Below, in pieces: positions 9,758 through 17,045 of a DNA stretch of 64,000 bases. The notes beneath the pieces are model-generated. The model did no database searches, was not told the origin of the DNA, and saw nothing but the letters and a program-made list of their open reading frames with translations. The translations under genes were made by a program, and so were the position numbers. Numbering within the stretch: the stretch's first letter is position 1; each line of letters begins with the position of its first letter. Source of the DNA: Nitrospirales bacterium (GTDB taxonomy: Bacteria > Nitrospirota > Nitrospiria > Nitrospirales > UBA8639); contig BQIV01000021.1 in NCBI GenBank assembly GCA_021604005.1, positions 1-64,000 on the forward strand, written 5' to 3'.

Positions 9758-11425
9758 TTACAGAATTCTCGCCTCTGTTTCAGAAAAAATGAGACTCTTC
9801 TCAACATAGCTTTTGATATGTTCGTCTGTCGTCACAATGACCAGCGTCCAAGGGTCTTCATGAGAGCCGAGATACTGAAGAATTGGTTCCCGAATATGAT
9901 GAGGCACTTCATGCATGCCTCCATCTAAGATCAGCAGCGATGGACGGGTAATGATGGCCCGAGCCAAAAGGATCCTGAGACGCTGACTGGGAATAAAAGT
10001 CTTCCCCCCTTCTTTCACCATGGTATCTAGGCCCTCAGGCAACTCTTCGATTTCTTTATCGAATTGTGCCGCGCGCACGGCCCATAACAAATCCTCCGTT
10101 TGGATGTCTGGGCGACCCATCGTGATATTGTCGGCAACTGACCCCTCAAAGAGCGTGAGATCTCTTCCAAAAACAATACTCCGCTGTGTGTTCATTTGCT
10201 CAGTCGAGAGACTTCGCAGGTCAACCCCATTGTATTGCACGATCCCTGTTGGAGGTTCCTCTAACCCTGCAAGCACTAACGAGACACGATGACGGGCTGA
10301 TTCTGTAGAGCAGATCAACGCCCATTTTTCACCAGGCATGGCCTCAAACCGGATTTCTTCAGGACGAACACGTACTCCCCTCGCCCAACCTATTTGGCTG
10401 CAGACCAAATGAAGCCCAGCGGTATCGGACTCGACAATTGACAAATCCGATTCGCTTGGAGCTTTGTCTTGAGGCAATAAAAAGAGATGATTCAGTTCCG
10501 TTAATGCTGTCAAAAAATAAAACATGACGTATGTGCGTTTCGCTACGGAATCGATGCTCAAGAGCAGGCTGGCAACAATCACCTCTGCCGCCACAAGTTG
10601 TCCTAGCGTCAATTCCCCTCGACTGAGCAACCACCCAGCGGTTCCCAACAACCCCGTGTGTAAGATGATTTGAAGCGTCAGCGAACCGATGTATTGGCGA
10701 AGTAACACGCGAAACCGAGATTGACGTGCGTGCACATAGGTCGTAGCCAATCTATCCGCGTTCCGTAAAACAAGGTCCGAACAATTCGTCGTTTTGAAAT
10801 GTAAAAGATTATCGGCCACCTCCTGAAACCAATGAAACACATTATATTTCGACTCGGACATATGAAGAGTCGTGCGAAGTCCGTCTTTGCCCAGTAATCC
10901 AATGAGCATGACGGATCCAATGAGCACGACATCAAAGACCAGAAAATATGGGTGATACAAGACCAGCAAGGTCATGCCAATCAATCCGCCGATCAGCACA
11001 TTGGTCAGATCAACAAAGAGGCTTGAAAACGCCCGCTGAAGAAACACGATTTCAAAAAATCGACTGATGGCATCAGACTGGAAGGTCGCTTCTTTATAGC
11101 GGGGAAGGACTCGTGCCAACGCGAGGGTCACTCGAACAAAGACCCGTCGTTCGAGTATGTCTGTCGCATAGAATTGTAAGACTTTAAAAATTCCTACAAA
11201 GACCAAAATTACCGACATGATTCCAACAATCGTGACCACCATCACAGGAGAGATGGCAAACGCAAATGTGTTGACCAATTCTTGAACGGTCAGTGGAATA
11301 ATGAGGGAAAAAACACCTACCGCAAGGGCATAGATCAGAATACCTAAGAGAATCGAACGTTCTTGCTTCAGGAATAGGGCAAGACGATCAAGATTTTCTC
11401 GAAGAAGGGGAGCCTGTTGATTCAT
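9758..11425 (-). CDS. ABC exporter half with degenerate nucleotide-binding domain
   Basis: A 555-residue fused membrane/ATPase protein of the type I secretion exporter class. About six membrane helices lie in residues 25-315, followed by an ABC domain from about 335. The ATPase motifs are lost: the P-loop region reads ICSTESARHR (371-380) in place of GxxGxGKST, the signature region is FIPSQRLR (477-484) in place of LSGGQ, Walker B ends LLILDGG (498-503) with Gly in place of the catalytic Glu, and the switch His is Thr (VTTDE). Flanking parts such as RSIVFGRDLTLFEGSVADNITMG remain well conserved. The frame is intact, so this is selected loss of catalysis, not simple decay. It starts 8 bases after the TolC gene stop and is last in the operon. 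Confidence 0.8.
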   Translation of the reverse strand: MNQQAPLLRENLDRLALFLKQERSILLGILIYALAVGVFSLIIPLTVQELVNTFAFAISPVMVVTIVGIMSVILVFVGIFKVLQFYATDILERRVFVRVTLALARVLPRYKEATFQSDAISRFFEIVFLQRAFSSLFVDLTNVLIGGLIGMTLLVLYHPYFLVFDVVLIGSVMLIGLLGKDGLRTTLHMSESKYNVFHWFQEVADNLLHFKTTNCSDLVLRNADRLATTYVHARQSRFRVLLRQYIGSLTLQIILHTGLLGTAGWLLSRGELTLGQLVAAEVIVASLLLSIDSVAKRTYVMFYFLTALTELNHLFLLPQDKAPSESDLSIVESDTAGLHLVCSQIGWARGVRVRPEEIRFEAMPGEKWALICSTESARHRVSLVLAGLEEPPTGIVQYNGVDLRSLSTEQMNTQRSIVFGRDLTLFEGSVADNITMGRPDIQTEDLLWAVRAAQFDKEIEELPEGLDTMVKEGGKTFIPSQRLRILLARAIITRPSLLILDGGMHEVPHHIREPILQYLGSHEDPWTLVIVTTDEHIKSYVEKSLIFSETEARIL

Positions 11426-11432
11426 AGTTCTG

Positions 11433-12902
11433 TTAGAATTTTTCCTCTGTTTTCTTGTGACGGGCGGCGTACGATGGGGCAGTCACCCATTCACCGATAG
11501 CCCATTGATACAGAGCGAGCGCTTTCTGATAATCGGCCATGGAGACAATCCATCCCTCAGCGGCTTGCAGCACATTGCGCTCACGAAGATTGACAAAGAG
11601 TAATGTGGTTGCCCCGAGTTTAAATCGTGTACGCTCTCCTTTCTCGAGTTTTTTCGCTAATTGAAAAGCCTGCTCCGCGACTTGTGTACGCTCATGCGCT
11701 CGTGTGATCGCTGAGTGAGCATTGGCGACATCCATGCTGACCTGTTGCAGACGATAGTGCTCCAAGAGTTTAAGCCGTTGGGCTTTTCCTTTTAACTGGA
11801 GTTGGTCGCCGCGCGCTTCACGCTGAAGAAACGGAACACGCAATTGCGCGCCAAACCGATACCCTAGTCCTAAGACAAAATCCTCCGGTTTCCTCGAAGG
11901 TGCTGCTTCGACTGTCAGATCGGGGAGAAAATTATTGACCGCCACCTCTAGATCGATGTCATTTAACTCAGCCTCCAAATGCACGAGTTGAACTTCAGGA
12001 CGAACTGTTGCGGCTTGCCGCGTGTCTTGTTCATTTGGCTGCAACCTATAGTGGGAGCTGACCGAAGGAAATGGTGGAGCATCCATATGTTCTGGAATCA
12101 CCAATGAATCCTCTTCCCACAAAAATAAGGCAAGCGTATATTGCTCCCGGTCTATTTGGCGTTGGGCTTTGATCAGACGATCTCGACGACGTTGAACTTC
12201 TTGGTGGGCTTCGATGACATCAAACTTCGCTCGTGCTCCGGCTTTGGCTTGTTTCGTTAATTGTGCGGCTCGAGTCTCTGCCACGGCAACCGCCTGCTGT
12301 TGTAATTTCATGAGTTGACAGGCTGACACCCAACTCCAATATTGTGTCGCGGCACCGAGATAGAGATCCTGCCGAGTTTGTTGAATTTCTAATTCCGCTT
12401 GCCTGTCAGCTAATGAAGATTTTTTTAATTCGGCATGATCCGGGTTCGTGATGAATCCTCGGAGGAGCGGGAACACGATGCCTAACAGGGGTTGATTCGT
12501 GGTGTTGATGCCGAGATCCGCGACCTCCACATCTCCAATTCCGGCTCGAAATCCTGCAAATCCTTTGATTCCCCACGGGTGTCGCATTTCCACAAGCGTG
12601 TCATTGAATCCGACGCTAGTCGTTTTCCCATTCTTTACAAGCCGCTCTAGCTCCCAATCATTCACGAGATTTGGTTCGAACTTCCCGAGTGCTGCTAACA
12701 ATTTTCCGCTGGCTACCATCTTTTGCGTTTGACGTCCACGCAGTAAGGGATGCCCCTTTTCCACACGGGTCAACACGGATGACAAGGTCAAGACGGGCTT
12801 GAAGTTGTTCTCTTGTGATATAGGCGTGACGTTCTGTGCCCACAGAGATGTCACGTGGCAGACCATTAGCATCCCTACGCCAACTAGAAATTTCATTTTC
12901 AT
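11433..12902 (-). CDS. TolC-family outer-membrane channel
   Basis: About 489 residues. The start at 12902 is preferred because GAGGAGAGAGGA precedes it and a signal peptide follows (MKMKFLVGVGMLMVCHVTSLWAQ); an ATG at 12935 is in frame but buries the signal. Two long helical repeats typical of outer-membrane efflux proteins (PF02321) are visible, for example LYLGAATQYWSWVSACQLMKL and VSMDVANAHSAITRAHERTQ, with RFKLGATTLLFVNLRERNVL near the C terminus. It would form the outer-membrane exit duct for the HlyD/ABC partners encoded on either side. Confidence 0.85.
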   Translation of the reverse strand: MKMKFLVGVGMLMVCHVTSLWAQNVTPISQENNFKPVLTLSSVLTRVEKGHPLLRGRQTQKMVASGKLLAALGKFEPNLVNDWELERLVKNGKTTSVGFNDTLVEMRHPWGIKGFAGFRAGIGDVEVADLGINTTNQPLLGIVFPLLRGFITNPDHAELKKSSLADRQAELEIQQTRQDLYLGAATQYWSWVSACQLMKLQQQAVAVAETRAAQLTKQAKAGARAKFDVIEAHQEVQRRRDRLIKAQRQIDREQYTLALFLWEEDSLVIPEHMDAPPFPSVSSHYRLQPNEQDTRQAATVRPEVQLVHLEAELNDIDLEVAVNNFLPDLTVEAAPSRKPEDFVLGLGYRFGAQLRVPFLQREARGDQLQLKGKAQRLKLLEHYRLQQVSMDVANAHSAITRAHERTQVAEQAFQLAKKLEKGERTRFKLGATTLLFVNLRERNVLQAAEGWIVSMADYQKALALYQWAIGEWVTAPSYAARHKKTEEKF

Positions 12903-12966
12903 CGTGTCCTCTCTCCTCGAAAAATGCTCATTCAAATTTCAAAAGTCAATTAGATTTTCTCACACC

Positions 12967-14361
12967 CTATTTTTTCGGTCTTCCGGCTTTTGGTAACAGC
13001 ACATCTTTCAAGCTTGGCGTTCCGGATTCATAATCTGCTGGGAATAAATTGACACGCCGCCATATTTCATACCACAAGGGGACTCGATTGAGGATAACCC
13101 ACCCCATCACCTCCGTGCCCTGTCGTACCTGATCTTGAGGAGGCCAATCTCGTCGTTCGGTCTCTGGGACAACCCACAGACGAAATTGACGATTGGTCGA
13201 AGCCGATTGATCCACCACCTGAATCCTTCCATCATAGGTGCCTGCCATAATTTCTGGCCATGCCGAGAGAGGAATAGCGGGCACCCCCTGAAAAAGCAAG
13301 CGAACGGGACGCCCGGGTTTGAGCAATGGAGCGTCAATTGCATTGGCCCACATCTCGATGGCTGGCGTAGCACTTAACGGCACAATGGTGAACAAGAGAT
13401 CTCCGGGATGAACGATTTCACCAGGACCAATCCGTGTCAGACGGACCACTGTACCGTCGAGTGGTGCGACCACTCGACTCGCCACACGCCGCTGCAGAGC
13501 ATTGGATCGGGTCAATTCTAAATCGGCCAAGTCCTTAGAAGCCTTTGCGGCTTCTCCTAGTGCTGAAGCTCGTTGGGATCTCGTATCTAAGAGACGCTGG
13601 ACGAGTTCCGCATCGATGTGATCACGACTGTACACCAACGCCCGTCGTGCTTGTTGCGCTTCACGAAGAGATGCGTGGGCGGCTTTCACATCTGCCTTCG
13701 CAGCTGTGGCGGTTTGAACGGCTAGTTCCAATTCACGTCGCGAGAGTAATCCTTCCGCTTCTAGCACGCGTGATCGATCGAGGTTTAACACCGCAGTCTC
13801 CTCAGCCACGTTGGTGGCAGCCACGCGTTGTTCGGCACTTTGTACTTTATGATCGGCTTCTGCCACTCGTGCTTCGGCTGATGTCGTCGCGGCCTTCGTC
13901 AAGGTGGTCATTTCCTTGAGCCGTTCAGCTAAAATACTGGCACGCTCAAGTGCAGCCTGCCGCCGTTGCTCCAAGGCTTCACGAGATTCCTCGAGCCGTT
14001 GGACAAGATCTTGCGCCATGAACTGAGGATTGACATCGTCCAGTTCAAGCACTAAGTCACCTTTCTTCACTGTCACGCCTTCGTTCACATGCCACGTGCG
14101 AATATTGCCATTAATCTGGGCATGAATTTCTTGAGGCCGTTCTCTGGGTGAATAGGCTGAAAGGGCACCCTGAACCGTAATCGTTTGGGTCCACGGCACA
14201 AAGGCAACAATAACTCCAAACATGATGAACATCATCAAAGCCAACCGAGACCAAACCTGCAACTGTTGAGGCACTTTGACTAACGTGTGGGATTGGAGCC
14301 GCTGAGGCTTTACGCGAATTGTGTCCACAAGCGGGTCTGTACCCTCAACAGATTTCATCAT
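12967..14361 (-). CDS. HlyD-family membrane fusion protein
   Basis: A 464-residue periplasmic adaptor, first gene of the exporter operon. It has a cytoplasmic N terminus, one membrane helix near residues 38-56 (LALMMFIMFGVIVAFVPW), a first lipoyl half (INGNIRTWHVNEGVTVKKGDLVLELDD), a long alpha-helical hairpin (about 120-270, Ala/Glu/Arg-rich), a second lipoyl half (SRVVAPLDGTVVRLTRIGPGEIVHPGDLLFTIVPL) and a beta-barrel region. It should bridge the ABC protein in the inner membrane and the TolC channel. The TolC gene starts 64 bases downstream. Confidence 0.85.
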   Translation of the reverse strand: MMKSVEGTDPLVDTIRVKPQRLQSHTLVKVPQQLQVWSRLALMMFIMFGVIVAFVPWTQTITVQGALSAYSPRERPQEIHAQINGNIRTWHVNEGVTVKKGDLVLELDDVNPQFMAQDLVQRLEESREALEQRRQAALERASILAERLKEMTTLTKAATTSAEARVAEADHKVQSAEQRVAATNVAEETAVLNLDRSRVLEAEGLLSRRELELAVQTATAAKADVKAAHASLREAQQARRALVYSRDHIDAELVQRLLDTRSQRASALGEAAKASKDLADLELTRSNALQRRVASRVVAPLDGTVVRLTRIGPGEIVHPGDLLFTIVPLSATPAIEMWANAIDAPLLKPGRPVRLLFQGVPAIPLSAWPEIMAGTYDGRIQVVDQSASTNRQFRLWVVPETERRDWPPQDQVRQGTEVMGWVILNRVPLWYEIWRRVNLFPADYESGTPSLKDVLLPKAGRPKK

Positions 14362-14502
14362 TCTTGATGCCTCAGGTCACGTGTCAGTCTTCATGATTGA
14401 TCGACAGAATTCTACTCTCTACGTAATGTTATCGTCTCACACTGCTTTTAGTCGTACCGACTTGAAGAATCGCGCGCTCTCAATAATGTCCGAATACTAC
14501 GA

Positions 14503-15003
14503 TCTTCTTGTTCTGAACATCCTTACTACCTTTAGTGGTTATCAAACACATAACATGCGCATTGGCATATTCGAGTCGAACCGTAGCGTTTTATCCGGCA
14601 GCGCCGGAAATCGTGTGAGTTCAGCGACATACCAGACCATAGACTTAAGTGTGCAGCTTCGTACGCTGGAAGATACCACAGAAGAACCACTATTTGAACG
14701 CGTGAACCGTGGATTGATCCTCACAGAGGTCGGGAAAACGACATACCGTTATACCGATGAGATTTTCCGTCTCGGTCACGATTTCATCAATACTTTCCAA
14801 GGACGAGAGTCCGACAACCCTATTCGCCTCGTGGTAGGCATCGCAGAAGTGGTTCCCAATAATGGTGGCTTATAAATTCTTGAAAGTCGCGTTTCAACAG
14901 TTCGAACACATTCGGATTGTCTGTTGAAAAGGTCGCTTAGAACAACCACTAGGAGAACTCACTCTCCATATTCTCGACATGATACTCACCGATATTGTCA
15001 CAA
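14503..15003 (+). pseudogene. Broken NhaR-like LysR regulator gene
   Basis: Fragments align in order with the NhaR branch of LysR regulators. An HTH remnant reads YQTIDLSVQLRTLEDT. It is followed by EEPLFERVNRGLILTEVGKT and YRYTDEIFRLGHDFINTFQG, then NPIRLVVGIAEVVP. The frame then ends at a TAA near 14872. In the next frame the effector-domain start continues as VAYKFLKVAFQQFEHIRIVC, a TGA, then KGRLEQPLGELTLHILDMIL. Upstream, the HTH beginning (EHPYYL, stop, WLS) is also interrupted. At least two stops and one frameshift therefore disrupt the gene, and the C-terminal half is absent. It is divergent from the HlyD gene. Confidence 0.7.
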
Positions 15004-16445: not shown

Positions 16446-17045
16446 TTATTTCTTCTTCAGCACCGGATACCCCAATGTATAAATCCATTTGTCATCCTTT
16501 TTGGCATTCTGCGGGGCTAATTCTAAGGCCGGGGTATGACATGGCACACAATCGACCTTGTAATCTTTGGATGTCGTGGTAACGCGATCATCCGCGTTGA
16601 AAAACGACCAACCCCAGCCATCCCCCCACAATGCCGAGCTTTTAAACCGTCCCTTGGCATCTCGCACCAGAACGAAAAAACCTTTGATAGTCGTAGCATG
16701 GCCCACGGCCGGACCTGTGGTCATGGACATGGTTTCCGCATGCAGGAGTTCTTTCACCAGGATGGCTCCGTCGGGAAACCGGCGATGTTTTTGATAGTAC
16801 GCGATGGTTGTCGGCTGCGTGTAGACCACATGATATTCATGAATATTCGCGTTGCCCTCATCTACCTTGGCATGCGTCCAGGTACCGAGTGTTGGCCATC
16901 GTGTATAGTCTTCAGGAACACTAATGGCTCCGGTCTTCATATTCACATTCGAGGCAAATGGTGTTTCGCCTTTCGCCATCGCACCCCCAGCCCAATTCCC
17001 CAAACTAACAAGTATCCCCATGACTAGAATCAAAACTCGTTTCAT
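16446..17045 (-). CDS. Cytochrome P460 family protein
   Basis: A 199-residue periplasmic c-type haem protein. A signal peptide (VLILVMGILVSLGNWAGGAMA) precedes a beta-rich domain containing DYTRWPTLGTWTH, IHEYHVVYTQPTTIAYY and FPDGAILVKEL, and the C-terminal haem site C-V-P-C-H. This is the cytochrome P460 pattern. In ammonia oxidisers P460 oxidises hydroxylamine through a Lys-haem crosslink, and related proteins act on NO or unknown substrates. Whether the crosslinking Lys is present cannot be decided without alignment. AAAGGAGAAATCG precedes the ATG. It lies between the YHS and SnoaL-like genes. Confidence 0.9.
   Translation of the reverse strand: MKRVLILVMGILVSLGNWAGGAMAKGETPFASNVNMKTGAISVPEDYTRWPTLGTWTHAKVDEGNANIHEYHVVYTQPTTIAYYQKHRRFPDGAILVKELLHAETMSMTTGPAVGHATTIKGFFVLVRDAKGRFKSSALWGDGWGWSFFNADDRVTTTSKDYKVDCVPCHTPALELAPQNAKKDDKWIYTLGYPVLKKK

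Follow-up and report, generated by a model that had tools for sequence, protein, structure and literature searches.

ABC exporter-like proteins lacking an ATP site are encoded with HlyD and TolC in Nitrospirales and other bacteria

An operon of a Nitrospirales genome (4.7 Mb) was found to encode an HlyD-family adaptor and a TolC-family channel together with an ABC exporter-like protein that has lost its ATP site. The operon lies in the window, that is, the stretch of 64,000 nucleotides of contig BQIV01000021.1 analysed here. Comparison of the sequences demonstrated that the ATP site is lost in every member examined of a protein family, that these members group in one membrane-domain clade, and that purifying selection and the operon are maintained. 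We infer that the protein forms a complex with HlyD and TolC which exports a putative substrate, and more tentatively suggest that transport may be coupled to ions via the membrane domain. The best explanation, to which we assign a probability of roughly 0.45, is that the protein would be a naturally occurring pseudo-ATPase of the ABC exporter type that serves HlyD-TolC and hydrolyses no ATP, possibly in an ion-coupled manner.

The three open reading frames are tightly packed on the minus strand in the order HlyD-TolC-ABC, at the positions given by a preceding sequence-only reading of the window. The gene for the HlyD-family periplasmic adaptor (464 aa, 12967..14361; HlyD_3, 2.7e-11) is separated by ~31 bp from that for the TolC-family outer-membrane channel (500 aa, 11433..12935; Pfam OEP, 6.5e-31), which is followed after 7 bp by the gene for the ABC protein (555 aa, 9758..11425). 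The HlyD gene is also a conserved neighbour in relatives, where the TolC gene adjoins the ABC gene. The locus combines the HlyD adaptor and TolC channel of a type I secretion operon. Against TIGR01843, the HlyD protein scored 74.7 bits, under the cut-off of 208.65. No RTX- or adhesin-like substrate gene was noticed beside the operon in gene maps covering its neighbourhood. On the minus strand, 16446-17045 of the window encodes a small secreted product that contains a CVPCH motif and, by eye, looks similar to proteins of the cytochrome P460 type.

The ABC protein was identified by its open reading frame, matches to TIGR03375 and ABC_tran, and the family alignment. It consists of an exporter membrane domain with six transmembrane segments (TM; residues ~12-335) and a degenerate nucleotide-binding domain (NBD; 336-548). 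The closest NCBIfam family was TIGR03375 (LssB type; residues 19-548, 4.7e-36), although the score of 124.3 bits was under the curated cut-off of 693.1, as was that against TIGR01846 (HlyB; 77.8 vs 725.55 bits). Matches to PDB profiles spanned most of the protein, with ComA matching over residues 20-555 at 2.3e-35, and these together with the TIGR03375 match indicated the fusion of an exporter-type membrane domain (TMD) with an NBD-like domain. ABC_tran was barely detected by Pfam (32.4 bits, cut-off 25), whereas the HlyD and OEP domains of the neighbouring proteins were clear. An AlphaFold2 model of the protein built from six sequences was unusable (mean pLDDT 43, pTM 0.31).

The residues quoted by the sequence-only reading at the four key motifs were exact, and alignment confirmed that each motif was degenerate. 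The Walker A position is occupied by ICSTESARHR (residues 371-380; 10286..10315, minus strand) and the ABC signature position by FIPSQRLR (477-484; 9974..9997, minus strand), both motifs being lost. At the Walker B position, LLILDGG (497-503; 9917..9937, minus strand), the Asp is kept and the catalytic Glu is replaced by Gly, and at the switch or H-loop position, VTTDE (531-535; 9821..9835, minus strand), Thr stands in place of His. When aligned on E. coli MsbA, the protein retained 2 of 12 diagnostic ATP-site residues, compared with 10-11 in 19 canonical exporters, in which one residue fell short as the Q-loop column was set off by one. A complete ATP site, composed of Walker A, signature, Walker B Glu and switch His, was absent. 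The claim that every ATPase motif had been lost was nevertheless slightly too strong; 10 of the 12 residues are gone, but the Asp of Walker B (D501) and the Gln of the signature remain. The former switch strand is preceded by a conserved Trp, W526 (9848-9850), in a PW[ST] motif that replaces the canonical sequence; this Trp was invariant in 18 aligned Nitrospirota/Nitrospinota members and found in most Bacteroidota members.

The distribution of the family was examined in several collections. Among 295 Nitrospirota genomes searched, strong homologues (E < 1e-100) were confined to Nitrospirales, in which 77 of 98 sampled genomes were carriers. As counted from the table, the family to which the window's genome belongs contributed 8 of its 18 genomes, a sister family that we take to be Nitrospiraceae 69 of 79, and a third family 0 of 1. 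Beyond Nitrospirota, the breadth of the family is seen through two Nitrospinota genomes of the public genome collection (L003, L004) and through the plasmid collection, the latter being the source of the Bacteroidota and Pseudomonadota members. The plasmid relatives were full-length with ~24-28% identity and E-values down to 9e-62, and belonged to Bacteroidota (Persicobacter, Aureibacter, Riemerella) and Sphingomonadales (Novosphingobium, Sphingobium, Sphingomonas, Croceicoccus). The phage collection gave weak matches only.

In the alignment of 103 family members with the 19 canonical exporters, no member had a complete ATP site, and at most 6 of the 12 diagnostic residues were found in any of them. 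The switch His was present in 0/103 members, the first Walker A Gly in 3/103 and the catalytic Glu in 2/103 (L081 and L087, neither of which had a complete site). The pattern of loss varied among lineages. The Walker A lysine is gone in the clade of the window protein, with TESARHR-like sequences, while most Nitrospira copies kept the lysine and have APTH- or TPSQ-like signatures and LIFDG. Nearly all ATP-site residues are gone in the sphingomonad members, and Walker A is near-complete in some Nitrospira copies of the B type described below, which may still bind ATP. The NBD fold and two features of intracellular loop 2 (ICL2), W199 and K211, were retained. The alignment with homologues linked to HlyD and TolC, proposed by the sequence-only reading, thus revealed the loss of equivalent functions in every lineage examined, and the predicted loss of ATPase activity is a trait of the family across several phyla, not of one odd gene.

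To keep the dead NBD from influencing the grouping, the maximum-likelihood tree (IQ-TREE) was restricted to the membrane domain. All pseudo-ATPase members formed one clade (support 100/99) that joined those of Nitrospirota/Nitrospinota, Bacteroidota and Sphingomonadales, separated by a long stem branch from 18 canonical-type controls including type I secretion (T1SS), C39-peptidase and MsbA types. Given the long stem and the few controls, a single loss of function would be the simplest reading. A further candidate, the Eleftheria terrae protein annotated as "ABC transporter transmembrane domain-containing protein" (L106), was placed with the canonical exporters and served as a control. Estimates of dN/dS from three genomes 85-88% identical were 0.08-0.09 for the TMD, 0.11-0.16 for the dead NBD, 0.08-0.10 for HlyD and 0.11-0.13 for TolC. 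The dead NBD is therefore still under purifying selection, which refuted relaxed decay. Sequencing error was also ruled out because independent assemblies with 85-88% protein identity share the losses. These results bear on the possibility that the gene is a decaying pseudogene or an assembly error of this genome. A neighbouring regulator has indeed decayed, as a remnant of a divergent NhaR-like LysR gene, truncated and split into two broken frames, occupies 14441..14999 (plus strand), where relatives carry an intact gene beside the operon. However, the frame of the ABC gene is intact, dN/dS is ~0.1 and the losses are matched in ~100 relatives, which already refute this explanation and leave it a negligible probability. 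Close relatives with a normal Walker A and relaxed selection on this copy, which the sequence-only reading had named as grounds for abandoning its claim, were not what was found; the losses are common to relatives and dN/dS is low. The family is evidently ancient and still maintained in four phyla.

The operon described from the window is also maintained in relatives. Of the 40 Nitrospirota loci sampled (L037-L076), 33 encoded HlyD, TolC and the pseudo-ABC protein side by side, and the triplet recurred in all annotated Bacteroidota and sphingomonad loci except one. In Novosphingobium aromaticivorans DSM 12444, the three genes are SARO_RS19820-RS19810. In the Nitrospiraceae, the position of the operon is conserved beside genes read as putative purE and purK. 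The remaining seven Nitrospirota loci have an orphan pseudo-ABC gene lacking HlyD and TolC, indicating that not every copy of the family is part of an exporter in cis. These orphans (L058-L061, L064, L069, L072) are of the B type, one of two paralogous groups in Nitrospiraceae, A and B (the latter with 27 members and support of 0.975). At least 14 sampled genomes have both A and B, arranged in tandem or else with B at a separate site as an orphan. The co-occurrence of A and B, both dead, suggests that they may pair as pseudo-pseudo heterodimers.

Several loci showed other arrangements. Three consecutive TolC-type genes followed by the pseudo-ABC and HlyD genes were seen in five Nitrospira loci (L055, L065, L066, L073, L074). 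In Sphingobium sp. TKS (L082:5001-8054), a gene annotated as an IS3-family transposase apparently interrupts the operon on the downstream side of the ABC gene, and S. baderi (L086) has a complete operon encoding an identical membrane domain. On a Sphingobium plasmid (L079:1362-5664), a DUF2309 gene, which we take to be of DabA type, immediately precedes the pseudo-ABC gene. In GC-rich Nitrospira loci, tandem open reading frames on the strand opposite the ABC gene (clusters 22 and 25) looked spurious.

The orphans raise the alternative that the protein no longer transports and has become a regulator, receptor or scaffold, which would sense a cytoplasmic or membrane ligand and control or anchor the HlyD-TolC of another pump. 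Pseudo-enzymes often become regulators, one kind of orphan (L064, L069) directly precedes the genes for a paired sensor kinase and response regulator, and some Nitrospira loci have two or three TolC-type genes per pseudo-ABC gene. A regulatory role would also fit an NBD that is more constrained than expected of a free-floating relic. However, dN/dS indicates that constraint on the protein is strongest in its membrane domain, and the ABC-HlyD-TolC triplet recurs in Bacteroidota and sphingomonads with no gene for another pump, so that we regard this alternative as distinctly unlikely. Among the options raised by the sequence-only reading, a complex powered in another way is favoured over a regulatory role.

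Another of those options was an NBD supplied in trans. Each composite ATP site is formed by the Walker A of one NBD and the signature of the opposite NBD (PMC7756269). As the NBD of the window protein lacks both, pairing with a canonical partner would give two incomplete sites and no consensus site. In a search of the protein's own genome with the family profile, the window protein scored 883 bits and the runner-up 100 bits, and the profile searches found no stand-alone NBD close to the family in that genome. Neither the Nitrospirota nor the annotated Bacteroidota and sphingomonad loci viewed had a canonical ABC gene in or beside the operon. With tandem partners dead as well, no partner restoring one consensus site was identified in the operons, and the genome showed no close paralogue; neither a second NBD acting as dimer partner nor the orphan ABC ATPase of matching type that had been envisaged was borne out.

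More broadly, an ATPase encoded elsewhere in the genome could provide the energy, be it a canonical ABC protein that forms a mixed dimer with the pseudo-ABC subunit or an unrelated enzyme that docks on the pseudo-NBD. Heterodimers with a degenerate site are common (PMC7756269), the genome encodes five other complete TMD-NBD exporters, and HlyD/OEP loci of another type, which have no ABC gene, have been suggested to use a SecA-like ATPase (PMC4452313). These SecA_DEAD-HlyD-OEP loci were considered as a match for the present operon and rejected, because they have no ABC homologue and no recurrent SecA-like gene was noticed beside the operons here. The mixed dimer would have no consensus site, the genome has no close paralogue, tandem copies are both dead, and no ATPase gene recurs beside the operon. 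Such an energy source appeared improbable as a whole, but an unrelated ATPase may still dock from outside.

Two titratable residues in hydrophobic stretches were specific to the family. Glu281 in TM6 (10583..10585, minus strand), in the column of MsbA F288, was shared by 88 of the 103 members, the other 15 carrying Gln, and had no counterpart among the 19 canonical exporters. His158 in the TM3-TM4 turn (10952..10954, minus strand), in the column of MsbA S164, was conserved in 102 of 103 members and found in 1 of 19 canonical exporters. The members with Gln belong mostly to one Nitrospira subclade, which also includes four of the five loci with three TolC-type genes. This Gln implies that Glu281 is not an obligatory proton carrier in all members, and His158, at the periplasmic turn, may be structural. 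Ion-coupled transport has been reported for MsbA and LmrA with the NBD deleted, and the TM6 glutamate E314 of LmrA was needed for its proton coupling (PMC4979069, PMC2704374, PMC6155054). The column of E314 differs from that of Glu281, being ~20 residues deeper when numbered from the Walker A lysines. To our knowledge, ion coupling of LmrA and MsbA is not generally accepted as their physiological mechanism.

Regulators encoded divergently beside some of the operons (L041, L055) passed the NCBI cut-off for NhaR, and related LysR genes lie beside others. Intact NhaR-like genes at the equivalent position were seen in loci L041 and L042 of the window's own family and in Nitrospinota L004. In E. 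coli, NhaR activates a Na+/H+ antiporter. With these neighbours, the two residues and the LmrA/MsbA precedent, ion-coupled export is the most attractive mechanism, on circumstantial grounds. The protein retains the membrane domain of an exporter, with the intracellular loops that usually form the interface to the NBD, and its NBD-shaped cytoplasmic domain is unable to form an ATP-hydrolysing site. In the proposed mechanism, the window protein would most likely act as a homodimer, whereas two pseudo-paralogues may pair in Nitrospiraceae, and the dimer would be the inner-membrane part of the HlyD-TolC conduit. An ion gradient through the membrane domain may then drive transport, with Glu281 and His158 as candidate coupling residues, and the pseudo-NBD may serve as a structural or gating domain. 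The most specific form of this proposal, in which the family dropped ATP hydrolysis, the HlyD-TolC pump became a secondary one driven by ions via the TM6 glutamate and the former ATPase domain became its gate, is tentative and somewhat unlikely to be correct in full.

Alternatively, the pseudo-ABC dimer may be a passive or substrate-gradient-driven conduit, a gated pore or facilitator that hands a metabolite over to HlyD-TolC with no coupling to energy, in which the pseudo-NBDs gate the dimer or clamp it shut. The absence of the ATP site in every member (n=103) and the retained NBD fold and ICL2 residues agree with such a conduit, as does the possibility that several B-type copies bind ATP without hydrolysing it. 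The family-specific Glu281, however, suggests binding of cations or protons rather than a bare pore, and we consider this alternative unlikely.

The novelty lies in the missing motor, the fold and the operon type being familiar already; no published description of a pseudo-ATPase HlyD-TolC exporter family was found in open-access text. As in the LssB/LapB group (TIGR03375) and HlyB/PrtD, a six-TM domain is fused to an NBD and HlyD and TolC are encoded alongside, but the window protein has neither an ATP site nor a C39-like domain and belongs to a separate membrane-domain clade. Evolutionary loss of ATP-site residues with retention of transport is known from TmrAB, TM287/288, BmrCD, TAP and Pdr5. 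In these systems, each dimer still has one full consensus site (PMC7756269), whereas the window protein provides neither half of one. For LmrA-MD and MsbA-MD, it was reported that the membrane domain of an ABC exporter can act independently of ATP, as proposed here. Those are artificial truncations, while in the present family, known from sequence, an NBD-shaped domain is kept by selection and the Glu is in another column of TM6. An ABC-HlyD-OMP operon of a sphingomonad, HlyBD2-OMP2 of Blastomonas fulva, is similar in composition, and its ABC protein is reported to be ~52% similar to one of Novosphingobium aromaticivorans (PMC9505733). That paper presents it as an ordinary ABC "HlyB" pump, unlike the pseudo-ATPase family; as a lead from this comparison by description, it possibly belongs to the family.

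An ATP motor is the defining feature of ABC exporters, and yet this family has been selected in four phyla, in the classic arrangement with HlyD and TolC, with no ATP site in the members examined. It represents a natural version of the disputed LmrA-MD and MsbA-MD experiments, and the question of whether the membrane domain of an ABC exporter can act as a secondary transporter becomes testable on proteins tuned by evolution. The label "ABC transporter ATP-binding protein", given to these genes by annotation pipelines, is misleading. As the operon is present in most sampled Nitrospira genomes, at a conserved position beside the putative purE/purK genes, the system probably matters to nitrite oxidisers.
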